From the NCBI GenBank assembly GCA_035235625.1, contig CP141144.1, positions 46,002,014 through 46,066,013 of the forward strand: a DNA stretch of 64,000 nt. Reading direction: 5' to 3'. The stretch is from Saururus chinensis (lineage: Eukaryota; Streptophyta; Magnoliopsida; Piperales; Saururaceae). The translations under genes and the position numbers were made by a program. This document shows positions 183 to 54,700 of the stretch, piece after piece. Position 1 is the stretch's first letter. Each line of letters opens with the position of its first letter. The notes beneath the pieces were generated by a model. It was given only the letters and a program-made list of their open reading frames with translations, made no database searches and had not been told where the DNA came from.

Positions 183-843
183 GTATACATCATGGCATCT
201 AGGTACATAACATGGCATATAGGTACATAGCATGGCATATAGGTACATAGCATGGCATATAGGTACATATCATAGTATATAGGCACATAGCATGGCATAT
301 AGGCACATAGCACGACATATAGGTACATAACACGACATATAGGTACATAGCATAATATATAGGCACATAGCATGGCATATAGGTACATAGCATAGTATAT
401 CGGCACATAGCATGGCATATAGGCACATAGCATGGCATATAGGTACATAGCATAGTATATAGGCACATAGCATGACATATAGGCACATAGCATAGTATAT
501 CGGCACATAGCATGACATATAGGCACATAGCATAGTATATAGGCACATAGCATGGCATACAGGCACATAGCATAGTATATAGGTACATAGCATAGTATAT
601 AGGCACATAGCATAGCATATAGGTACATAGCATAGTATATAGGCATATAGCATGGCATATAGGCACATAGCATAGTATATAGGCACATAGTATGGCATAT
701 AGGCACATAGCATAGTATATAGGCACATAGTATGGCATATAGGCACATAGCATGGCATATAGGTATATAACATAGTATATAGGCACATAGCATGGCATAT
801 AGGTATATAGCATAGTATATAGGCACATAGCATGACATATATA
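183..843. repeat. 20-bp minisatellite, about 33 copies
   Basis: Units of the form CACATAGCATGGCATATAGG repeat head to tail, with variants at a few fixed positions (GGC/GTA/GAC and C/T after AGG). Because 20 is not a multiple of 3 and the unit lacks stop codons on the minus strand, all three minus frames stay open for about 200 codons. Those frames have a 20-residue period and are a by-product of the repeat, not genes. Confidence 0.97.
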
Positions 844-967
844 AATCGTAGCATAACTTAGCACATGCTGTACTGAAGATCAGAAATGCTTACTTCCATC
901 ATAACCCATACAGTAATGGCATCTACGGATAGAACCCCGTCTTACTTCGGGTGTCTTTTTCTTGTTT

Positions 968-1485
968 CAGTGTTCGGGCAGAGCCTTGCTTAATCTCGGG
1001 GCATTTCCTCCTTATAAGATTGTCAGCTCAGAAAATGGAACCCACCATCGCGTAGAACACCTTCGATTTAGTCAAGAACGGCTCTTGAATCGACTAAATC
1101 GGAGTTGGGATGGCCAGAAACAGAGAAAACAAAGTTCGTCGGTACGGGTAGAACCTCTCCTTGTCTTGGGGCGTTTCCTCTTCATACGATTGCTAACTCA
1201 GAAAATGGAACCCTCCATCGCATAGAACATACTCGATTTAGTCAAGAACGCCTCCTGAATTGACTAAATCGGAGTTGGGATGGCCAGAAACAGAGAAAAC
1301 GAAGTTCGTCGGTGCATGAAGATAACGGGCAGGACCTCCTCTTGTCTTGGGATGTTTCCTCATCATACGGTCTCCAACTCGAAGAACGGATAGCTCCATT
1401 GCATAGAGCATACTTGATTTAGTAGGAAACGAGTCTTGAACAGCCTTAATCGGCCTCAGAACGGTCAAAAACGGGGGTAGAGAAG
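968..1485. repeat. Three imperfect ~170-bp tandem repeats in the LTR
   Basis: Three successive units share an AGAAAATGGAACCC block, a GATTTAGTCAAGAACG block and, in the first two, AAATCGGAGTTGGGATGGCC. The third is more diverged. They lie upstream of the TATA-like box in LTR orientation (minus strand), the place where LTR enhancer repeats are usually found. Confidence 0.85.
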
Positions 1486-1512
1486 TTCTGCCTGAAAATC
1501 GGAATAGAATGG

Positions 1513-1523
1513 GGTATATATAG
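1513..1523 (-). promoter_or_regulatory. TATA-like box of the minus-strand LTR
   Basis: Minus strand reads CTATATATACC, between the 170-bp repeats and a GC-rich stretch. Position and sequence fit a core promoter of the LTR; there is no transcript evidence. Confidence 0.45.
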
Positions 1524-1992
1524 CCCCCAAGCCGCGCCGAAACCGCGGCTGCGCCACTGGTTTCGGGCGGCGGCGCCCGCGGTACGCGCGGCTCGCGCCG
1601 AAAATGCGCCGCGCGCCATTTCCCTTTTTTTATTTTTATTTTTAAATCCAAAACTTCAAACGCGCGTATCTTCCTACCCCGGAATTGGATTCTCGCGTTC
1701 TAGGTACCGTTGGACTCGTATCATTGAGCCCTTCGATACAAACCTACTTAAAGCAGCAAAACACACTATTTCCAAGTGGGTCCCACCTATATTGCACGTT
1801 TCTCAAATATCGTAATTTCCGGTCCCGACCTCTGTTTCGCTCATTCTTCAAATCGTTACGCTCGTTATGTCAAGCTTTACCTGGCTACGAGTATTTTATC
1901 TGATAAAAACCCTTAATATTAATCTCAAATTACTGAATTACCCTTAACCCTCTCGGGTTAAGCGTAATCGAAAAACGGGTCGTTACATTCAT

Positions 1993-3590
1993 CGTGCTGC
2001 ATCCCATCTCTTAGACCAAGTTCTGATCACCAGGTGAGGGGTATGGCAGGGCATGACACGAGGTTTGTGCACTACCGAAGAAAGATCAAAATTAAGAAAA
2101 AATAATATTCATTATATATTTCAAGTAGTTTAACATGTTTGTATATTCCTTTTTAGAGATTGGAGCTTCTAAAGAAAAAAAATCAAGTTTTTAAAAGGCT
2201 CTATGGCTAGTTGGCAATCAGTCTGCTAGATTCTAAGAAAGAGGAGGAAGAGGAGAAAAAGAATGAGAATAAGGAGGGAGGATGAGGAGGTAGAGAAGAA
2301 GGTGTAGGCAGAGGAGGAGCTGGTGACAGTAGATTGGAGAAGGAGGCGGGGTAGGGTTGGTTGTGGAGGAAGGCCATGGTTCAGTGGGTTTGTGGAGATA
2401 AAGTGTAAGGAGGGGCAGGGCATTTGGGTAATTTTATACTATATGTGTGGATGTTTTCATTTGCGTAGCCCCATTTTTATAAATTGCCAAAACCTTCTTA
2501 CATTTGTAGGAATACATATAAGTCTAGGGAAACTTCTAGGAAATACTTTATCTCTAGGCAAATCACATTTTATCATAGCCTTTGGTTCCAGTTAATGTGT
2601 AGTTTGATAATAAAGGATTTGAGGTTAACTTTGATGAGGCTTTGAGCACTTAATTTCAAAACCTAAGTGGGGAACTGTCCTCTTTACTATTGACAATTAA
2701 CTATGAGGATGGTGACATCTTGACTTGATTGATATGGTTGGTACTTGTTTTTCAGTTATGTCATGAAGCAAGCGTGGTCAGAGAGATTGTGAGAGGGGTA
2801 TGAATCCGGCCAGCTTTTAATTTTATTCAAAAAGTTAAACACTTCTAGCTTTAAGTAGATGCAACTTTGCTACTAAGTGGCGAAACATGTGCTAACTTCG
2901 TTCTTGACTAATAGAACTCCAATTTGTGTGTTCGCCATTCCAAATGATGTACTAAAGAACGCGAAAATTAGATTTCTGTAGCTAAAATTATGACTATAAC
3001 AATTAATGAAACTAATATCTAGTGAGGTTAGCACTTATTTTTGCCAAATTTAGTGAAACTAGTACCTTCTTTGTCACTAAGTAACAAATTTACCACTTTA
3101 TTTGTCACTTAGTGAACTTTTGTTGTTAAGCAACAGAGTAGATGCTACCTTTTCTACTTAGTGCATGCGCTAATTTATGAGCTTATACCTTGAGCTACGG
3201 AAGTATGAACAACTTATAAATGTTTTTTTTTGTGCATCAAATTCATCTTTTTGAGCTCTACAATAAATTAAGTTTAAAACTCAAATTTAGTTCCTATAGG
3301 TTGTTGCCATAACAAAGACATCCACGTCAAAAGACCCACTTCTTGCTATATAATAAGCGGAGACCCTACTGAAGCTGGCGGTACAGGAGAGATCGAGGAT
3401 GGGCTATTGCAATAGGGGCCTCATTCATTCGGGGAGCACCTTAAAATTTCCTCAAATTGTTCCCATGGTGCTAAAGGAGGTGATAGTTCATCATGGGTGG
3501 TGGCAGAGTTAGTATCAAATTAATTGGAAAAATATTGGGGCATTTTCCTCTAAAGTGCCTAATAAGTTCTTCAATTATATAGGTACTTGC
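1993..3590. other. Intergenic DNA without a recognisable gene
   Basis: AT-rich intergenic sequence. A purine-rich stretch of GAGGA/AAGGAGG lies at about 2240-2350. Short open frames here have no family resemblance and no splice context. Nothing else is recognised. Confidence 0.6.
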
Positions 3591-4200: not shown

Positions 4201-10343
<6,143 letters not shown>

Positions 10344-16239: not shown

Positions 16240-19200
16240 ATGGCTAGATGGGATGAGATATTGTCACTCCCAGTTCAGAGTCCACCAACTTTGGAATTCT
16301 CTGCTGCCGACATACTTTGGTCTAAAGTCGAAGGCTGGCGTGATGCAATCGACAGAGTTGCTCTTATTCCCTTCTCTAGAGTGGATGACTTTGTAAGGGG
16401 TGAGTCTGCGAATAAGGAATGTCCCACTAGATTTCATGTCGAAGCAAGGAGAAGGCGACCTCCTGAGATGCCATACAAACAAAAGGTGGACGGAATTATT
16501 GAATATATTTTGTAAGTAATTTCTCCTTTAGATTTTTTATGCCCTTTTGGTCCTTCCTTTGTTCTGTAAATACAAGTGGTTCCTCTGCAATTGCTTTTAC
16601 TGTCTTGACATGATTCTATATGAAAATTAATTACATTTCTTGTTGTTTCTTTGCATGCTCTCTAGTTCAACTTATCTAATTACTGAACTCTTCTGCCAAT
16701 GACTTTGTGGAATGTCCAGGTATTGGTGCTCATTTGGACCAGATGATCACAGGAAAGGTGGAATCATTCGGCCAAGTCGGGTTTATAATGCAAAGAGGAA
16801 AACTCCTGCTGGTAGACCAAACACAAAGAGAGGTTGTGTTTGTCATTTCATTGTAAAACGTCTAATCGCAGAACCAACAGTTGCACTTATTATATATAAT
16901 CAGGATAAACATGTTGACAAGAAAGGCCAGCCATGTCATGGCCCTTTAGACAAGAAGGCTGTGGGAACACGAGCCATGTATGCTCCATACATTTCGGAAG
17001 AGCTTCGTCTGCGGGTTCTGTCTTTGCTATATGTGGGAGTCCCTGTGGAAACCATAATGCAGAGGCACACGGAATCAGTGGAAAAGCAGGGTGGTCCTGC
17101 TAATCGGGATGATCTTCTGACCCACAGGTATGTTCGGAGGCTGGAGAGAAGTATCCGCCGATTTTCTTATGAGGTAGATCCGGATGATGCAGTTAGTGCT
17201 GGCATGTGGGTTGATAGCCACAGGAATCACATATTCTATTACGAGGATTTTACTGATTCTGATCCAATTGTTTTGGGGATTCAAACGGACTGGCAGCTGC
17301 AACAGATGATTCGATTTGGTAATCGCAGCCTCATAGCATCAGATTCCTCATTTGGGACAAACAAACTGAAGGTTTGTTTATCTTTTCTTATAAATCTATA
17401 TTGTTTCAAATTCATTTAATAAATATTACTCATTTGTATTATACTATGTCTAGTATTCAGTTCAGAGCCTTGTTGTCTTCAATGAGAACAACAAAGCTGT
17501 CCCTGTAGCTTGGATTGTCACTTCTCTGTTTGCAAATGGGGAGGCACACAAGTGGATGAGGGCTCTGTATGACAGAGTTCATTCGAAAGATCCAACATGG
17601 AAATTGGCTGGATTTATAGTTGATCTTCCTTCAGCAGATATTCTCACTATAAGGTTTCACGTTTGTCCTTATTCTGTTAATATTGATATATGTAGGGTTT
17701 GGGAGCTGAAACTTTTTCTGTCCTTTCTGGCTTGCTCAGGGAAGTGTTCCAGTGCTCTGTACTGATCAGTTTTTGGCGGGTTCGACATTCCTGGCATAAG
17801 AATCTAGTGGAAAAATGTCAAGATTCTGAGATGTGTATTGAAATATTAAGCCGTCTTGGGCAAGCAGTCGACTGCATCTGCAGAGAAAATGGTGATTTTG
17901 ACTTATTTGAGAATTTTATAGAAGATTTTGTTGATTGTGCAGAGTTTTTGGATTACTTCGTCGCAGTATGGCTCCCTAAATTAGGTTGGTTTGACTTGAA
18001 ATGCTTAGTATTTTTAAGCAATGTTTTGTTTTATTTATTTGGGACACTTACTTTCCTTTCCTTGTTCAAACAGGGATGTGGACCAGGGCATTGAAGGTGC
18101 TTCCTATTGCTAGCCAGGAAACTTGTGCAGCCATGGAATTTTATCATCATCAACTGAAGCTTAGGCTGCTAAATGAGAAAGACCATAATGCCTATCAACG
18201 CCTAGATTGGCTTGTTCATAGGTTAGGTACGAAAGTGCATTCTTATTACTGGTTGGATGAATACCCGAGGAAAGATGACTTTGCTCGGTATCAGAAGGAT
18301 GAATGGATTAGTGGTTCAACATTTTGGCAGCAGGGCTCCCAGATTCCAGATTCTGATGTTTTTCTGGAACAGAGATGTGCAAAAGTTATAAGCCAACAAG
18401 ATCGTCAAAAGACCTACATTGTTTGGAACCCAGGTTCTGATTTTGCATTATGTGAATGTGATTGGTCAAGAGTTGGTTATTTATGTAAACATGTAATTAA
18501 GGTTTCCCAAGTTTGTCGCAGAAAAGGATTGGCCCCATTGTCTATCAGCCTCCTCAAATATAACCAGATGTTGGTCAATATGCTTCATTGTCCACCTAAT
18601 GATTCCTTGATTCGTGATCATGCAGTTTCCCTTGCTGTCTCTGTGCAGATGCAGTTGAATATGATCTTGAATGCAGCAAACTGCCACCATTCACAAACTG
18701 CTGTGGCACCTGTGGAACAACCATCAGCTCGTCAAAATGGCAATTCATCTGGCATAGATGAAGTTGTGATAAATGAAAACCAATCTATGGCTGAAAACAG
18801 CAGCTGTTTTGGAATGACAGATGAAGTGCAAGCTGATCATGCTAAAGAGACCTTTCCTGACATCCAAATGGACATCGATAGCACTCCCTTGAATGAATGC
18901 AGGCCCATTGTTGAAGAGCAGATTCCTGCTGGTAATTTACTCGAAAATGGGCGGACAACTAACACAAGCTTAAACTTTGATACCTGTGTGCATGCCTCTT
19001 TGAACATGGAAACTCAAGAAAAAACTAACAATACGGCTACTATTGATACTGTGGCTGAGCTTGATGAGTGCGGAGGGGGTGTCAATGTGAAGAAAATGAT
19101 GGAATATACTACCTCTGTGAACAGTGTGTTAGAAAATAGTGAGGGCGATGATGTGCTTGACAGCTTAGATGCAAGTTCTTTTGTCTTCCCAAATATGGAA

Positions 19201-19689
19201 GTTCACGATGATACCAGGATTGCTGGAGAAAATATAATGGATGTGTTGCAAAGTGATGATGGCATTGCAGCTGTTGCAGAAGAAGTCGCATTAAGTATTA
19301 GTAACTTATATGAGAAGGGAGAGAAAGACATTATGGGCAGCCCAGATGTAAACGTGTTTGTTTGTTCTAATCAGGATAATCCAGATGATGCCAGGGTTCG
19401 AGTTATTGGCCGCACTGACCTTCATGTTAATAATATAAATGGTGATGACATTGTTGGAGACGGAACTGTTTCCAGTCTCCCTGAGAATCATGTATTGATA
19501 AATGAACAGAGTGATAATACAGACAAAAAATTACTTGTGGACACCTTCACATCCCCTATGGTTGAAACACAAGATGATTCTGAGCTTGTAGGCTTTATAC
19601 ACGGGAAGATGGAGTGTGCAGATGGTGAGAATGGAGCTTGTTCTGTTGAATATTTGTCCCCCAAAACCATCGAAGGCATCTCTGAATAA
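16240..19689 (+). CDS. SWIM zinc-finger protein derived from a MULE transposase
   Basis: Exons 16240-16511, 16720-17371, 17454-17653, 17740-17984 and 18074-19689 join in frame to 994 residues. The middle part is a MULE transposase-like core: SDSSFGTNKLK (D299, first acidic residue), VVFNENNKAVPVAW, and GFIVDLPSADI (D365). A SWIM finger follows at 583-596 (CECDWSRVGYLCKH: C583, C585, C594, H596). Residues ~650-994 are acidic, low in hydrophobic clusters and probably disordered. It fits the plant family of single-copy SWIM proteins such as Arabidopsis At1g60560/At4g13970, domesticated from Mutator-like elements and thought nuclear; the molecular role is unknown. No terminal inverted repeats flank it, and introns and an intact frame argue for a host gene. 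The third catalytic acid was not placed. Confidence 0.93.
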
Positions 19690-20430: not shown

Positions 20431-22071
20431 TTATTAATTTTTTTTTTTGTGTATACATCTTCTCCATTCTCAAAAATTAGCTCAATCAAGGTTTCACTTA
20501 CTGAAACGTTCTCTTATAAGTGGTATATTATGAAGCCATAATCTATAATATTTACAGTATCAGTTGCTTTTGGTGACCATAGCTCACAGTACATTTTCAT
20601 GTTTTTGGTGTCGTTAGTGTTGAATTTCGGAAATATGTACATGGAAATCTGATTAAGGATGCTACTGTAGCAGTATTTTAAAACCGACCCGGCCAGTGAC
20701 CCAGAATTATGGCGGGGTCATGATTTATAACTAAGGTGATGTTTGGGTACGGAATCGAGAGAAAATTCCGACGATTCCATCATAATTCAGCATAGAATTA
20801 CTAGAATCTTGTTTGGATATAGAATGTAAACGGAATTAAAAATTCCGTCGGAAACACGATTCAGTCGCGTTTCCGTCCTGAATCACCGAATCTCCTCGCG
20901 AGGAGATTCGGTCGATTCCAGAAAACGCGTTAAAACGGAAACACGCGTTATCGCGTATTTCCAGCCCTTACCCCTCATAAATGATTCGCCCTCTCGTCTT
21001 CGACCCGATCTTCTCTCTCACTGTTTCCCTCGTCTGTCTCGTCTCCCTCCCCTTGCATTCCATCGGAGCCAGTGTTGCCGTCGAAGGAAGCTACTGCCGT
21101 CTGAAGAGGGCCTCCGACCTCCTCTGCCAATCTCCCTCTGGAGGTCGGCGGTCTCTGCTCCAATGGCGGACGGACGACAGCCCCATCGTAGCCATAAATA
21201 CTGAAGCCTGCCTGCGGACCACCGGTGCGCGAGCAGTTTCTGTTGCCTGAAGTCCGGCTAGCGATGGAAGAATCTGAGCAATGTCTGCAGCTTCGCTCTT
21301 CACCAGATACTTTCTTTTACAATGAGCTATTGTTTCCCCCAGAAATACAATCCATGAATGTCATTCAATCTAGTCCTCTCCGAGCTTCGAGCGAAGGTGG
21401 CGGTGGACCGGGGCGACTTCGGCGCCTGGATCTCACTCCTTTCCGAAGTCGAGAAAGTATCGCCTATAATCGTCACCACTAATCATCACATATGTTTTGG
21501 TTTCACAGTTTATGTTTGTACATAAAGGTTTCTGCTTTACGGGTTATCCCTCCCATCCTATAATTCGTTTCTATATTTGCTTTATTCTTGTTTTGCAGGA
21601 TGACATTGGCAGCACATCGGAGGTGTATGACTTGTTCTTGTTGGAGTTCCCATTAGTTTGTATCTAGTTGACTCTTGGACTGATCTGTTGTGGTATTTGT
21701 TCAAGTTTTCTTCTTTTATATAATTGTTTTATCATGGTTTTTGTACCAATACCATGTTTTCTAACATTTTGGAGCAGTTCCGAAGTACACTAAATTGGTG
21801 ATGGCCGTACAAAATATTTGGCATAAGTAACTAATGATTTTTCCCCATAAAAATGTGTTCATGATGGTCTGGAACATTTAATATGGAAGTTTACTAGCTT
21901 AGTTTTTTGCATTTGAAGTTATAAAACAAGATTACAGTTAGTATATATTGTGCTTGTTATTTATTAAATGTAGATTGACTGCCTTTTGGATTTGTCAAAG
22001 TTAGGAACAAGGTAAGCAAATTGAAAACTGGGAGCAATGTTCCTCAGGTGTATTACATCTGTGTTGTGCAG

Positions 22072-22201
22072 GTGATTTTGGGACTGTTATTGTTCACAGC
22101 TCAACAGAAAATAAAGCTGCCAATGAGGTAGAAGGGCATTTACCTGTAGATGAAAATATGAAATTTGCACCTGGACCAAAAGTTACCACAGATAACATTC
22201 G
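22072..22201 (+). pseudogene. Unidentified exon-like fragment inside the element
   Basis: A 130-bp stretch is open in one frame (GDFGTVIVHSSTENKAANEV onward, 43 codons), preceded by TTGTGCAG and followed by CG|GTAAAC, so it looks like a real internal exon. The parent gene was not identified. A possible smaller companion is DDIGSTSEVYDLFLLE at 21600-21647. It lies upstream of the iminopeptidase exons and in the same direction, but the composition does not belong to that protein. Confidence 0.4.
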
Positions 22202-22600
22202 GTAAACTTTAATCTCATTCTATGAGCGAGGAGTTCAGTCGGCTGCCTACTCTGTCCATCTCTAGGCCAGTTACTGCAGTTTTACAATGCTATCTTTTGA
22301 AGATCCAGACGATGTCCGAAGGTAAAATTTTGTTTTGTAACGAAGATGATTTCTCTGATTGGACACTGCCAAAGAAGCTGTGATATTACTTAAAATGTCA
22401 TGACTCATTATTTGTTGTTGGGTAGTTCCCCTTAAAGCTCCTCAATGTTTCCTTACCTCTACTATGAGCTTGATGATGATGTCTGGCATGTATAAGAACA
22501 ATAATGTAGTAAGCTAATTCACTCAATAAACTGAAATGTTACAGTAGCAGAAATATTTATGTGCATGGTAATTCATTTGACATATGACACATATTTTCAG

Positions 22601-23384
22601 GGAAGGTATGACATGTGCTGCCCAATGATGTCAGCTTGGGATCTTCACAAAGCATGGCCAGAAGCAAAATTTAAGGTTCTACGAATAACATTAGTTGCTA
22701 GTATGTCATTAGGAGTGGGATGGTACAAGCAACCCTTAGCCAATTCCTGTAATTGGACCTTGCGTAAAATAGGAATTGCAGGGATGTAAGACCAGGAAGA
22801 ATTTATTTTGACCATCCAAAGCTCGTGATACTGCTGCTTGGTTAGGCTTGTACTAGATGGCAGAGCCCATTCAGAATGGTAGGATAAAGTCTACAATGAT
22901 AACAATCATGCTGAGAATGACAATGGGTTGGCCATCAGATGCAAACATCAGTAATCATTCCCCATCAAAGGTTTTGCATTTCGCATGCTGGTGCTCATTC
23001 AAGTTGATAAACATGCTTTCTAACCTTGGCTGCTATTATATGTAATATTAGCCTCGCATTACCGTGAATAGAGGCAGTGATTGAATAAAATATGCTAGAA
23101 ATCGTGTGCAGTTTATCAAAGACGTTGCCATAAACTATTAACAGTCTACTAGGATTGCATCGGAGAAAGTATTAGCTGTTACTAATTTTTAACTGAAATT
23201 GCTGCTAATTTGCCTTCTATTGGATGACCTAATGCATTCTTTGTGTGCGGTAGTGCCAGACGCAGTTCACTCTGCAAGTGAACGAGGGATAACTGCTGCT
23301 CTTGCAGCGGGGACTGAGAAGCTGATGAACATCTTAAAGGAGAAAGGGGCCCAAATGTACCCATTTACCATAGCCCTCATGTAG
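22601..23384 (+). pseudogene. PIP: Proline iminopeptidase 3' exons, captured and broken
   Basis: Exon 22601-22675 (acceptor TTTTCAG, donor AAG|GTTCTA) reads GRYDMCCPMMSAWDLHKAWP and then EAKFK, the conserved stretch before the catalytic His of plant prolyl aminopeptidases. The final exon 23250-23384 reads VVPDAVHSASERGITAALAA and ends with TAG after a short extra tail. The catalytic His is kept, but the usual DAGHSANE is DAVHSASE. The acceptor of this exon reads CG where AG is expected. The N-terminal two thirds, with the nucleophile Ser and Asp, are absent. Introns are kept, so the capture was from DNA and not by retroposition. Confidence 0.85.
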
Positions 23385-23465
23385 TATGACTGGAACCTCA
23401 CAAGTTTATTTAAAAAATAGATTTCATTTCATGCATTTACAATCAATTTACGTGGGGCGTATCAC

Positions 23466-23700
23466 CTTGAATTGTACCATATCGGTCTCAACCGATATAG
23501 GTACGTACAATACTTAGTATCGGCCGGTATGAACTTTCATGGGCCCATCAAGCCACAAAAGAATTTTTGAGGAGCATAACACCTCTTGACCAATACAAGT
23601 ACGTACGACACTCAATATCGGCTAGTACGAACTTCCATTGGCCCGTCAAGCCATAAAAGAATGTTTGAGGAAAAATATGAGGCCTTTGTACTTCTATAAT
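23466..23700. repeat. Dimer of a ~110-bp GTACG/TATCGG-rich repeat
   Basis: Two units share AGTACGTACGACACT/GGTACGTACAATACT, (A/G)TATCGGC(C/T)(G/A)GTA, TGG(G)CCC(A/G)TCAAGCCA and AAAAGAAT.TTTGAGGA. The unit also contains the short palindrome-like TATCGGTCTCAACCGATA. It lies inside the TAA-flanked element, right of the iminopeptidase exons. The origin is unknown. Confidence 0.75.
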
Positions 23701-24194
23701 TAATTTTTAAAATAAAATAACTTTTTTAGCGTGATCATAAACTGTTCTATATGGCCCAAAGCCAAATACATTAGGTCAGGCATATTGTTAGTGATGCACA
23801 CTAACCACGTACAATGCTTAAATGAAGGTTATTTTTTTAATTTTTTTCATAAATTTAACAATTCTAAATAAATACACAAATTTCTTACCCAAAAATGATT
23901 CTATTAAAACAATTCCATTTAAAGGGTATATTTGTCAATTTATCTAAAATTTTAAAGAATTAACCTTAAACACAATTCGCTATCCAAACACGATTCCATA
24001 TTAAAAATTCCATACCCAAACAAAATTCCGATTTTATATTAAATCGGCGGAATCAATTCTAAAAAATTTCAATTCACTACCGAATTGATTCCGTACCCAA
24101 ACGACCTAAATGACCCAATTCAAAAAACCTACCGGGTCTAGTTGGACAGGGTTTAAATGGCCAGGTCGGGTTGGGTTTTAACACTGCATCCTTA

Positions 24195-35529: not shown

Positions 35530-37400
35530 GTGAATCTTTTACTATTATGCCCAAATTGTTTACACCCTCCACACTTATAACTTGCTCTACCATCTCTCTC
35601 CATGGTTACACGGTTCATTGTGCGGAGTACACATTTCTATAAGCAGTTGATGTGTAACATACTCTTGCCTGTATAGGTTGCTATCGCTTTCCCTACACAA
35701 CAAGAAGATGAGAGCAATGATATTGGTACACATGAGGGTAATTATACGTACGAGTTCAATGAACCGCATTCACTACAAGCTTCCTTCCATGCATGATCAT
35801 CACTTCGTAATCGGTGCAGTTGATCATGTGAATTATATACTTCTCAATTTCATTTGTTTGTTCCCTTATTATCCCTTCTGCTTTGAGAGTATGGGGTGAC
35901 CATGGCATACGAAGCGCAAGATCGTTTGACAAAGAATTTTACTACCTAATAAAAAATACCTGACACTAAGGCCTGCATGGGTAATTCTCATGCCCCCTTC
36001 AAGTCGCTATTTAAACTTTTTGCCATATTTGCAGTCGTCATGCCAAATTTTCTAAAACCATCATGAGCAAGAGACCATTGTTGAGGGTGTAATCCTTCTC
36101 TTGAGAGGAGTTGTTTTGCCTTTTGACTTTCTTGACCAATCAAGTCTATTTTAGCATCAAATTATTCAAATGTCAGTACACATGCAAGTCCCTTAAAATT
36201 TTCCTTTATGTGATAGATGTAATATTGATAGTAGAAGAATAGCGGGAGAGAAATTTCAGGCACGACCTTTTTAAGCCCCTTATGTCGATATGAGATGATT
36301 GCTATATTCCTCATATCCATAAGTACATTCTCCCTTAATTGACTTAAGAACCATTTCAAATTTTCACAATCTTCCTTTAATACTATCCCAAATACTACAG
36401 GAAATAATCTATTGCTTACGTCTGTAGCCGTTGCAGCCATATGAGCTCTGGGATACCTGTCGTACAAGTGAGTGGTATCGACACCAATAACTGGGATGCA
36501 ATGCCTAAACCCCAGTATAGATGGCCCAAATACCCAAAACATCCGCATAAATCTCTGACACACGTCACCATCCACTAGATCAACTTATATACGGTACCAG
36601 AATTTGCATCTTGTACTGAGGTACATTGACAACAATTTGTATGATTCAGCCCAATCCCTATAAATAGCTTTTATGGTCATATTCCTTACCACCCATATTT
36701 TTTTATAAGAAATGTCAACGTGGAACCTCTCCTTCATTCTTTGAATAATATTATCTAGTGTGAGAGTTAATTCAGCTTCGGTACCAGATATTATGACCTT
36801 GGAAACAAATAATGCACTACACTGCCTATGATTAGTACTAAGCTAGGCATTCCTATAAGTGTGGTCACCTTCGTATGTCTTCAATTTAAAGTACCTTACA
36901 CCTATCTTCATTGATCCATGAACTCTCTAAGGGCAAACACTATCAATACACTTAACTGTATATTCTGACATATTCGCACATAGAAGCTTTTATTGGACAT
37001 GATTCATAATTGGAAACTCCCTCAAGGCTATGATAAATGCCTCTCTATCCTCAAAGATGTGCCCAACATATAACTGTGCTTTGTTCTGTTGCTTCATATC
37101 CATGCCCCAATTAATTGTCTCATCTATTTACTCATATATGATATGTTCATAGATTGGCTCCTCCTCGTCATAGTACATCAGCTCATCATCATCCACATTC
37201 ATGTCATTTGTGACAATTACATTGTCTACCACAGAATCCCCCTCACCGTCAACCATCTGTTGAACACTTTTCCTCACCTCTGACACCTTCTTCATTCGTA
37301 CCATACTCCTCACTAGCTTCACCAATATTATTTTCACCTTCATTAGCCTCATTTATATCAACATCATCATCATGACATGGGCTCCCCTACACATAAATAG
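35530..37400 (-). pseudogene. Decayed MuDR-type transposase
   Basis: The open block at 36162-36575 reads FWVFGPSILGFRHCIPVIGV, then DTTHLYDRYPRAHM and NRLFPVVFGIV..ENLKWFLSQL, the MULE transposase core; the first catalytic Asp lies in VIGVDTTHLY. Upstream (36600-36960) is the region before the core, with YFKLKTYEGDHTYRN; further upstream (37128-37352) is an acidic linker with DDDELMYYDEEEP. Downstream, LIGQESQKAKQLLSREGL (~36110) and NEPCNHGERW (~35590) correspond to the C-terminal part. Several in-frame stops make it non-functional. Confidence 0.85.
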
Positions 37401-46612: not shown

Positions 46613-47148
46613 GGGGTCGTTTGGGTACTGAATTAATTCAGTAACGATTCGATTTAGTAGCGATTCAATTCAGTAAATTCATCGCTGATTATGAATTACG
46701 TTTGGCTATAGAATTTGTTAAAATAAATTCAGATGTCACGTCAAACCTAGTCTTAAAACTTTATACACCTCTAACTTTCTCTTTCGAACTCGGATATGCA
46801 CGTTCTTGGTACTATTACACTCCTAAATTCAAGCTCTATCAAACAAGATCCCACAAGGGTAGGTAATTTTGAACTTTTAAAGTGGGCCCTACCTATATGA
46901 CACGTTTTTTGAAGCTCAAATCGATATGAACAATAAACATTAAAAAATAATAGAATCTGTAATTTTTAAAACGGTGAGGTGATTCAGTGATTCAGTCTTG
47001 ATTCAGGCTGAAACGGACTGAATCTTACTACAGTGCTGAATTTTTAATTCAGCGCAATTTCAGTACACAAACAAGATTCTAATAATTCAGTGCTGAATTG
47101 ATACTGAATCGGCTGAATCTTCTCACGATTCAGTACCCAAACAGCCCC
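46613..47148. mobile_element. 536-bp PIF/Harbinger-type (Tourist-like) MITE
   Basis: Left GGGGTCGTTTGGGTACTGAA and right, minus strand, GGGGCTGTTTGGGTACTGAA are near-perfect inverted ends. TAA flanks both sides (46610-46612 and 47149-47151). The sister block A has the uninterrupted form at about 44352-44376, which confirms the insertion. Confidence 0.88.
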
Positions 47149-51763: not shown

Positions 51764-54700
51764 TCACCCATCTAGATGCCTGGGCCTTTTACCTTCACTT
51801 GAGCCTCCTCCGTTTAATTCTGCTTCAAACACAGGCCGAGTTCGATACTCATATCTCCATGCACAATACAAGAAAATACAGAAATTGATCACACTCAAAA
51901 CTGCAAGGAGCCAATATAAGTAATCAAATCTCCCAGTGTTTATGTTCTGTGATAGCCATGACGGTCGGCCTTCTTCCTTGTTCCGAGTAATAGATTCTAC
52001 AATGTTGTTGAGTATTGTAGCAGCAAAGCAGCCCAAACCACCAGCTACAGCAGCATAAGCCGACCCCACACTTCTCATTGCATCAGGGGCCTCCTCATAA
52101 AGGAATTCTAAGAGACCCACAATGCAAAATACCTCAGCAATGCCAATCAAGCAATATTGTATCAGTAGCCAAAATGCACTCAGATTAGGCATGGCAGTCA
52201 AAAACATATACTCATACCCATGTTTTACTGCATAGTTTCTTCTGTACCTCTCAAAGACGCCAGCCCAGGCCACAGAAAAGATTGACACTGCCAGACCAAT
52301 TCCTACCCTTTGAAGCTGAGAGGCACCATGAGGATGGCCAGTTATTCGACGAGAAACTGGAACAAAGGTGGAATAGTATAGAGAAAGGATGAGAAAGATG
52401 CTGAGGCCAGGAAAAACAGGCATACATGTTACTGGCAATTTAAGTCTTCCCATGTGAGTGTTTAAAGTGTATGCTTGCTGGACAGATAGAGTGAGAAACT
52501 CAGTTAATATAACGCTGAGCATTATTGTGCAGGCTGGTATTGGAAGAAGTTTCACTAGTATCTTGACCTCTTCAACTTGGGTTACAGTGCAAAGTCTCCA
52601 GGGGCTTGGATTGGTACCATCTTCTTTTAATTGCAAGGCTGCCTTGTCCAAACACCTGCAAGGATGCAGCCAATAGCATATCTGAGCTTCTTGTCTCAAA
52701 GTCCACTAATATTGAACCAGTTAAGATAATGTATCCTCAAGTGCAAGTCTTCTCAAGAAGCACACTAAACATATTATTCAAGTATGACAGTTAAATTTTC
52801 AGAAGAAATCTCGTAAAATGACAATATTCTAACTAACCAAAACATTAAGGATAATATGGCTGATACTTGTCATTTTAGTTTAGTTTGGTCTGGTTTTGCT
52901 GATATCAATGGTTGTCTTTTCCCTAACAGCTTAACCATTATGACGACTTGGTTCTAGCAAGGTACCAGATCCCTAGGTCCTGAATTTGGTTTGGTTGATA
53001 TCCTTTGTTTAACTTTCCCTAATAACAAGCTTTCAGGAGACCTGACTCTGACAGAACAATGCGCTGACCTAGATATTTGCAGACCCAAGGATATGATTTT
53101 TTCCATTTTTGCAGCATATTCAAACAGCACAAAGACTAATTGAATTTACTTAAGCAAATTCGTATTGGAGAGGGAACTTATTCCTATTCAGACAAGATTC
53201 TATAGAAATAAAAAAGGGCCACTGCCAGAAGTGTCTCATTATTTTCGTTTTAGATTATCTTCAGGTAGGATTGCTCTGCTTTAACAGCTATAATTACATT
53301 GCTGACTAAGAAGATGTAATTGACCACTATATATGAAAATCTATATCAAGAAGAATGGCTGTAGTACAAAAAAAAACTGTTTGAAATGATACAGATATGG
53401 AAATTAGGTACCTAAAATCATCTGTGTGAGTGATTTTTCCACTGCCCTTGATAGCTGATCTCTTCCCAGGAAGTTCATACAAGCCTACTAATTCACTGCT
53501 GGAGAAGGATGCATTTCTCTTCCGGAAAGCAGCAACTAGGACCTGGGCCATGCGTGTGAGGGGACTACCACCTGGTAGCCTGTGACGATATAGGGGTGTG
53601 CCTAGGAAAAAAATCACATTTGAGATAGCCATTGCTATTGCCAGTGATGCAAAAGCAGAAGCCCACCCATGTTTCATTTGGATATAAACTACCATGGTGA
53701 AGGCCACAATGGCCCCTATAGTGACAGAAAGGTAGAAAAAGTTGAAGAAACGATCCAACAGGGATTTATAGTCCCTTCTTCGCTCATCAAATTGATCAGC
53801 TCCAAATGATGAGACACAGGGTCTGATGCCTGCAGCTCCAAATCCTGTAATGTATAGGATACTATATAAGTAGAGCATTTGCCATGACTTTGCCGGCTCA
53901 CAGGTACCCAAGAGTATAGATACTTTATCGCAATTAGCTTGACTTGGCATCAGAACCTTCAAAGTGGCGCACAAGGTTATTCCAATTAAACCCTGCAAGA
54001 AAAAGATTGGTTTGACAGAAAAGGTGAGTGTACAGAGCTATGGAAGCTCAATATATTGTTTGAACATAGTGTCCTTGTACTACCAAAACAATGAACCTTG
54101 TCATTTGGTATGCTTGTCTCAATTGGATACATAATTCTTTAGTCAATTAATAAACTAATATAGAGAAATTGTGCCGGGAGGACTAGGTTGCACTGCTCAC
54201 TTGTCAAAAGTTGTTTTAGGATAAGAAGGTACAACAAATACAAAGATGCTATCTTCCATATAAAAAAGCATAGAATTCTTATTATGCCTTCCAAAAGGAA
54301 TCTTCTGTGACATGTGGATTTCTCACGAGATGCCCTTTTAAATTTTTCCAAAGGACATGCAGGCAGTTTTAGATGAAGCTTCTTCATTTTGACTAATTTT
54401 TAAATCATCATCCAGGCCTTGTCCCAGCCATCTGAGATCAATGACAAGGATTCTATTTTACAGTTTGACTCTTGTTATAATCAAAATGTTGATAAAAAAT
54501 TAGTGCAAATAATCAGTGGAATATCCATTGATGAAGAAGTGAAAGAACAGAGACAGATTTATAGCTAAATATAAGCACAGGAAAAACAAATCCAAGATAT
54601 TTTGAGGTAAACAATGTTATGGAATTGCGTAATTTTGAAAAGAGCCAACTTCAATCAATAAATTAAAGCAAGATATCATAAATGACATGATTTTGTAGCT

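Follow-up and report, generated by a model that had tools for sequence, protein, structure and literature searches.

A multi-copy Pack-PIF transposon of Saururus chinensis with genomic pieces of three host genes, very probably taken up step by step

Near-identical inverted ends flanked by TAA enclose exons of a proline iminopeptidase (PIP) gene at 20735..24106 of a 64,000-nt stretch of the Saururus chinensis genome (C5:46002014-46066013, in the following the window). Is this locus a transposon that took up gene DNA or a decayed resident gene, and how was its cargo assembled? We are highly confident in the following overall picture: the locus is one copy of a multi-copy, non-autonomous Pack-PIF element, whose cargo was copied as genomic DNA, probably stepwise and by repair-based capture, and evolves without visible coding constraint; the element is most likely mobilised in trans.

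With regard to its ends, the locus shows a perfect inverted repeat (16 of 16 positions, 20741-20756 and 24087-24102), and TAA stands immediately outside both borders (target-site duplications 20732..20734 and 24107..24109). Inverted ends by themselves are weak evidence of an element; a TAA/TTA-flanked 16-bp pair was also found in 4 of 200 Markov-shuffled windows. The element status is settled because the genome holds nine near-complete copies, eight of which are bordered by matching TAA or TTA trinucleotides. Here, we searched 516 Mb on 11 contigs (C1-C11) and scored 40 of 716 candidate places, i.e., all resulting counts are minima. At least nine near-complete copies, including that of the window, are located on seven of the 11 contigs. 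Five belong to a short type of 3363-3372 bp (C5, which is the window copy, C1, C4a, C8a and C11) and four to a long type (C8b, C4b and C2b with 5852-5889 bp, C7 with 4847 bp). The matching target duplications read TAA in C5, C4a, C4b, C2b and C7 and TTA in C1, C8a and C8b. The exception is C11, for which the first five bases are unaligned, no left duplication was seen and TAA is present on the right only. Over element positions 1-2696, the window copy is 99.5% identical to C1 and 96.2% to C11. The sequence-only reading had described the TAA-flanked inverted ends and suggested a search for further copies with the same ends; the ends hold up, and at least eight more copies exist.

The window copy is a complete short-type element of 3372 bp on the forward strand, apart from a final CC at the right end that is present in 7 of the 8 other copies. 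It is a non-autonomous PIF/Harbinger transposon (Pack-PIF) without a transposase of its own, and no match to the transposase frame of the related locus L022 was found in the window at E 1e-3. The first 241 bp of the element (20735..20975, forward strand) form the family's 5' terminal block, which ends where the matches to relatives with other cargo stop (about 242). Within this block lies a subterminal hairpin (20866..20929) with a 28-bp perfect palindrome at 20885-20912. It is followed by a leader (element 242-436, 20976..21170, forward strand), the cargo, and finally the 3' part (element 2712-3372, 23446..24106, forward strand).

Sequence comparison assigns the cargo, i.e., about 2.3 kb in one orientation, to three host genes, namely PRP39 on C6 and both a Ste20/SIK1-like kinase gene and PIP on C9, of which it holds genomic DNA copies including introns. 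The source loci are each found in one piece elsewhere in the genome (C6, C9), with 90-96% identity to the cargo. PRP39 segment a (element 437-920, 21171..21654, forward strand) matches C6 (L021:4172-4665) at 89.7% and comprises the 5' part, exon 1 (21358-21465), the intron and the start of exon 2 (21599-21654). The kinase segment of 564 bp (element 921-1484, 21655..22218, forward strand) matches C9 (L020:4141-4700) at 95.7%, holds one exon with AG and GT borders (22072-22201) and occupies the place of 71 bp of the PRP39 exon. PRP39 segment b (22219..22465, forward strand) continues with L021:4737-4967 and then 5047-5066, where element positions 1485-1716 are 93.6% identical. The PIP segment (element 1725-2711, 22459..23445, forward strand) corresponds to C9 (L019:3294-4295) at 93.0% over 1005 aligned positions. 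It contains the penultimate exon (22601-22675), the intron (22676-23249) and the last exon (23250-23360), in which the His codon, presumably that of the catalytic residue, is retained.

Protein comparisons were performed for the individual pieces. The joined PIP exons match solved structures (phmmer; 5yhp_A with E 6.7e-14, 1azw_A with 1.3e-11, 1qtr_A with 1.5e-10), and a Pfam search with them, as with the kinase exon, gave no match. The PRP39 exon pieces match PF23240 in order, with E 6.4e-13 when joined with X spacers and with 5.4e-7 and 0.0034 for the parts. The C9 source gene at 30.53 Mb holds kinase-domain exons, two of which in joined form reach PF00069 with E 6.6e-5 and 22.9 bits (cut-off 31.7); from its exons, we take it to be a Ste20/SIK1-like gene. 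Searches of the PDB with the PRP39 and kinase pieces returned nothing or implausible colicin immunity proteins (E 0.05 or worse), and the two leader frames had no match in Pfam. The cargo was thus copied as DNA while the donor genes stayed where they are, and within the PRP39 exon a difference of 71 bp versus 564 bp is bordered by blunt junctions. Two PIP exons in order with their intron and DNA-level capture by a TAA-flanked PIF/Harbinger-type element were correctly recognised from the sequence alone: the introns are kept, the sources are intact elsewhere, elements with related ends encode a PIF/Harbinger transposase, and the interior aligns with the PIP gene, introns included, as one stretch on C9. 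The exon-like piece that had been left without a name is indeed exon-like and is the kinase exon from C9; the PRP39 pieces on both sides of it had been missed, such that the cargo comes from three genes rather than from one gene plus an unknown piece.

Relatives of the element in the same genome suggest the order in which the cargo was acquired, which would be leader, PRP39, PIP and kinase. The first ~130 bp of the leader (element 242 to ~370) are common to two relatives that carry phosphofructokinase exons (L018, minus strand, and L044). For L035, L045 and L046, the whole-element matches run from 7 to 242 and the leader is not shared. In a PRP39-only relative at C4:37.06 Mb, leader and PRP39 are joined as in the window element, and PRP39 is present over 2140 aligned positions (90%), extending beyond the point where the window element switches to PIP. 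It shows no PIP match, has the family's 3' end at 79% and is interrupted by a phosphofructokinase element. The leader would thus have been acquired first and PRP39 after it, and PIP would have been taken up in place of downstream PRP39 sequence. As a side observation, another family member with phosphofructokinase cargo, bordered by TAA at either end, occupies L018:2537-6026, i.e., a position within or next to the 5' region of this PRP39-only relative. When the joined flanks of this nested element are compared with the window element, the right flank aligns at 84%, the left one weakly at 72% and nothing across the join, which is suggestive only.

The state before kinase capture would be represented by C2p (C2:33.00 Mb), which matches element 242-3241 and in which PRP39 is joined to PIP, the 71 bp are intact and no kinase sequence is present. 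With the displayed copies it shares a missing base at the PIP acceptor and a TAG stop in PRP39, and it does not share their change at the exon-1 donor. The 564 bp of the kinase segment are covered by a single alignment in every one of the nine copies. The junctions of this segment are blunt with respect to both sources on both sides. The first junction is found in 9/9 copies (identical in eight; in C11, one base is substituted at a distance of five bases) and the second by an exact anchor in 8/9, the anchor of C7 being different. Step three would therewith be the replacement of 71 bp of captured PRP39 exon by 564 bp of the kinase gene. Divergence from the source is 2.3-3.6% for kinase, 6.9-9.2% for PRP39 segment a, 3.9-6.1% for segment b and 5.4-7.5% for PIP (the latter with C7 excluded); this pattern fits a late kinase capture, although genes may differ in rate.

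In a putative fourth step, the 3' part of some descendants would have been replaced by sequence from the 5' region of a PIF element and from two more loci. The four long copies form one clade in the tree (support 100), whose branching relative to C8a and C11 is weak (supports 25 and 39). About 2.7 kb are added after element position 2696. Of the added pieces, piece 1 also occurs at nine further places (95-96%), being located upstream of a PIF ORF1 in L041, piece 2 matches C3:47.06 Mb in two stretches (93%) and piece 3 matches C1:14.48 Mb (98%). A peptide of the long variant had no match in a Pfam search. We further observed that four elements of 5.62-5.67 kb (L035 as well as C5:31.76, C5:14.97 and C6:32.49 Mb) share 200 bp with the C1-derived piece, which suggests either cargo exchange between elements or repeated capture.

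Several observations weigh against parts of this picture. Concerning the element itself, the first bases of the terminal inverted repeat (TIR) are unlike each other (GGTGAT vs GGTC), and no empty site of the window copy was found when its joined flanks were searched in this genome only. This search matched the flanks' own two halves and yielded two matches of 88% (~47 bp, on C2) to the left flank only. Concerning the cargo, the genome comparison revealed no source of the leader, and the origin of the join between PIP and the 3' end is not accounted for by the comparisons. Element 680-1626 is absent from the PRP39-only relative, which is thus uninformative on the kinase site. C2p is broken, i.e., its 5' block is absent, its last 126 bp are found inverted 0.6 kb away, and its PRP39/PIP join is short of ~40 bp. 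It is placed in the pre-kinase lineage only because of the shared changes and the intact 71 bp. The 47 sites at which C2p agrees with the copies against the source are unpolarised, and C2p has 39 differences of its own. The divergence of PRP39 segment b comes close to that of the kinase segment, such that relative ages by divergence are weak. Finally, 3' ends beside transposase genes are just 86-87% identical to that of the window copy.

To characterise the family, both terminal blocks were searched in the genome. The 5' block is present at least at 40 scored places out of 511 candidates, nine of which are the copies themselves; the query was itself 241 nt long, and the block border rests instead on the relatives' matches ending at 242. 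Opposite-strand self-matches, i.e., the hairpin, occur in 27 of the 40 scored blocks, and the hairpin may be a site for the transposase or a host factor. The 3' block (element 2882-3372, or nearly all of it) is found at 26 or more places besides the copies with 84-87% identity. For 16 of the 26, a listed 5' block lies in the right orientation within 15 kb (spacing 3.1-9.7 kb), and L018 is one further such pair with a 5' end outside the 40 scored places. We read 13 of the 26 places (L018, L022-L025, L032-L036, L044-L046) and part of L041, chosen by score and size and not at random. Five of the 13 show transposase sequence over most of the frame and six carry cargo, which is doubtful in one case; L023 and L024 fell into neither class.

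Among the transposase-bearing partners, L034 encodes a 426-aa frame with DDE_Tnp_4 (PF13359, E 3.2e-20) and an open reading frame 1 (ORF1) with Myb/SANT (PF12776, E 4.1e-16), and its 3' end is 86% identical to that of the window element. The stop-to-stop frame of L022 (391 aa) has matches of 84-100% in L032 (broken), L033 (split), L034 and L036. Taken together, the family shows the 3-bp TAA/TTA duplication, family-wide TIRs and relatives with DDE and Myb/SANT genes of PIF/Harbinger, and the window element is a TIR element without transposase that holds host gene fragments with sources elsewhere in the genome, as is typical of Pack-TYPE elements. Judging from the related ends, the transposase of PIF/Harbinger relatives in the same genome most likely mobilises it in trans.

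The family's ends also enclose other cargo. Phosphofructokinase exons are present in L018 and L044 (PF00365, E 3.0e-11 for L018 and 9.4e-8 for a peptide common to the two), and L025 and L046, which are 97% alike, carry a PC-esterase (TBL-like) piece (PF13839, E 2.2e-9 and 4.2e-6 for peptides of L025). In L045, a KH domain was identified (PF00013, E 4.7e-12), together with an LRR-like piece that is weak (E 0.03, below cut-off). The CAP-like piece of L035 is equally weak (E 0.03, below cut-off) and is counted as doubtful. In L025, L045 and L046, 21-52 residues of the transposase C-terminus are left near the 3' end, which looks as though the interior of an element with transposase had been exchanged for cargo. 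L041, a PIF element with ORF1, has gene-like frames in its 5' region, i.e., transposase-bearing copies may carry cargo too; three peptides of L041-L043 had no match in a Pfam search.

The captured gene pieces are decayed, as assessed from an alignment of the sources, C2p and eight copies (C7 left out). The CG in place of AG at the PIP acceptor, which the sequence-only reading had noted, is real in the window copy: compared to CAG in the source, the region is one base shorter in C2p and in 8/8 copies. The acceptor reads CG in six copies (C5, C1, C4a, C8a, C11 and C2b), TT in C4b, TG in C2p and AG in C8b, where AG arises through another change. An in-frame stop in PRP39 segment b (W codon TGG to TAG) is present in C2p and 8/8 copies. 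The PRP39 exon-1 donor is changed from GT to AT and the parental PIP stop codon is altered in 8/8 copies, while both are unchanged in C2p. The mean pairwise divergence among seven copies is 3.2% in exons, with approximate exon borders, and 2.7% outside. Because the exon value does not fall below that outside, no coding constraint is visible in the evolution of the cargo.

Given these observations, how was the cargo acquired? For the kinase step, patch repair from an ectopic template fits better than a fusion of neighbouring transposons, and we favour it because the junctions are blunt and without a transposon remnant. Here, a break inside the element would have been repaired by copying from an ectopic template and end joining, and the altered element would have transposed afterwards. 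In the fusion model, two transposons flank a gene piece, their outer ends are mobilised jointly and the inner ends get lost. This was proposed for Pack-CACTA and Pack-PIF in the accessible portion of PMC8903248, and some features of the family agree with it. The 3' end of the long copy C2b is 94-95% like that of L022 and L025, compared to 86-87% for the short type. Furthermore, the long copies hold sequence that lies upstream of PIF ORF1 in L041, such that a neighbouring PIF could have fused, and the transposase remnants in L025, L045 and L046 also speak for it. The model predicts that transposon ends remain between the older and the newly acquired DNA if they are not deleted. It does not fit the kinase patch, which lies within the PRP39 exon with 71 bp lost and whose two junctions are free of transposon sequence. 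It is also a point against fusion that the additional pieces of the long copies correspond to three or more different places (PIF copies, C3 and C1). We consider fusion unlikely as the general route, although the different 3' end of the long type and its PIF 5' sequence could include a fusion step. For the family as a whole, we lean slightly towards multi-gene cargo being built mainly by patch repair of breaks within an element, also within exons captured earlier, without homology and from unlinked genes, with the altered element spreading and the states before and after successive captures being kept in one genome. At least three other cargo sets, perhaps with a fourth (CAP-like), are found on the same ends.

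The remaining explanations have far less weight. A decayed resident PIP gene or gene cluster with coincidental inverted ends might be suspected from the order of the PIP exons with their intron and from the frequency of such ends in shuffled windows. It is ruled out by the copies and source loci: seven contigs hold nine copies that share these ends, the sources lie on C6 and C9, and the locus joins parts of three genes. We assign it practically no probability. Slightly more room, though still little, remains for an element that is kept for a putative chimeric transcript or for regulation of the source genes, e.g., by small RNA. The PRP39 ATG is kept, the kinase exon retains its AG/GT borders in the window copy, the PIP acceptor of C8b reads AG, and there are nine copies; against this stand the PRP39 stop and the lost exon-1 donor in all eight displayed copies and an exon divergence that is not below the non-exon one. 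Pack-MULEs and Helitrons are the best-known gene-capturing plant elements. A Pack-MULE creates target duplications of 9-11 bp, compared to 3 bp (TAA/TTA) here, and Helitrons have neither TIR nor target duplication, both of which are present. Since elements with related ends moreover encode DDE_Tnp_4 and Myb/SANT genes, the chance that the element belongs to either group instead of PIF/Harbinger is negligible.

Beside the Pack-PIF element, the window contains a related miniature inverted-repeat transposable element of 536 bp that is flanked by TAA (46613..47148) and shares 146 terminal nt at 77%. The regions flanking the Pack-PIF copy (20660-20734 and 24107-24190) show weak inverted similarity (AAAACCGACCCGGCC-like), as if it were inside another small inverted-repeat element; the aligned parts of these outer arms are short and weak. 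Further features are a MULE transposase domain fragment at 36162-36584 (minus strand; PF10551, E 4.5e-9) and pieces of a POT/NPF-type transporter gene at 51764-54037 (minus strand; PF00854, E 3.1e-33 and 4.5e-37). Long open frames at 16703-19689, among which one matches a SWIM zinc finger weakly and below cut-off, perhaps represent a transposase-derived host gene. Positions 155-889 are repetitive and open in three minus-strand frames with many CYVPI-like units.

Pack-MULEs capture genomic DNA from several genes and are amplified. The element studied here shares multi-gene genomic capture and amplification with them and differs in superfamily and in their longer target duplication. The sequence-only reading considered gene capture less well known for PIF/Harbinger-type elements than for Pack-MULEs and Helitrons; for PIF elements, it has already been published (PMC8903248, PMC2528002; accessible text). 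As described there for maize and rice, Pack-PIF are non-autonomous PIF/Harbinger elements with mostly TAA/TTA duplications and host gene fragments (Gisby and Catoni 2022, PMC8903248), and in maize cluster 18 a 163-bp and then a 58-bp gene fragment were added stepwise. Superfamily, duplications and stepwise gene-fragment cargo are the same here. Compared with the available account of those elements, the present cargo is long (~2.3 kb, three genes, introns), the kinase patch stands where part of another captured gene was, and one genome holds both relatives of earlier steps and transposase-bearing partners. The Pifvine-3 transduplications of grapevine, in the sections of PMC2528002 at hand, likewise are PIF elements with host exons and introns, some common to several copies; their captured DNA forms a long 5' region of elements with ORF1 and transposase, whereas the window element has no transposase. 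Turmoil-1 of C. elegans is also a Harbinger element with fragments of two host genes, but comes from an animal, has them in inverted repeats and has a transposase (PMC2572040, accessible part). Closest to the mechanism proposed here is the model of gap filling and FoSTeST for animal Pack-TIRs, with template switching in break repair and later transposition in multi-copy cases; within the consulted portion of PMC8277862, microhomology is reported at one or more breakpoints in 67.6% of cases, in contrast to the kinase junctions, which are both blunt.

Thus, Pack-PIF, stepwise capture in them and PIF elements with introns are already in print, and the window element is a well-resolved further case. 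In a partial, mostly open-access literature search, we recognised no report of a PIF element in which a host-gene patch replaces part of another captured host gene and the state before the patch is still preserved. How cut-and-paste transposons take up unlinked gene fragments is debated between neighbour fusion and repair-template switching, as far as the accessible parts of PMC8903248, PMC8277862 and PMC13317346 report. In Saururus chinensis, a PIF/Harbinger family with transposase-bearing relatives repeatedly took up exons with introns. Gene-carrying transposons were known before; here, relatives within one genome show the stepwise addition of gene pieces in unusual detail. The family offers states before and after capture with known donors, such that junctions, losses and order can be read directly.

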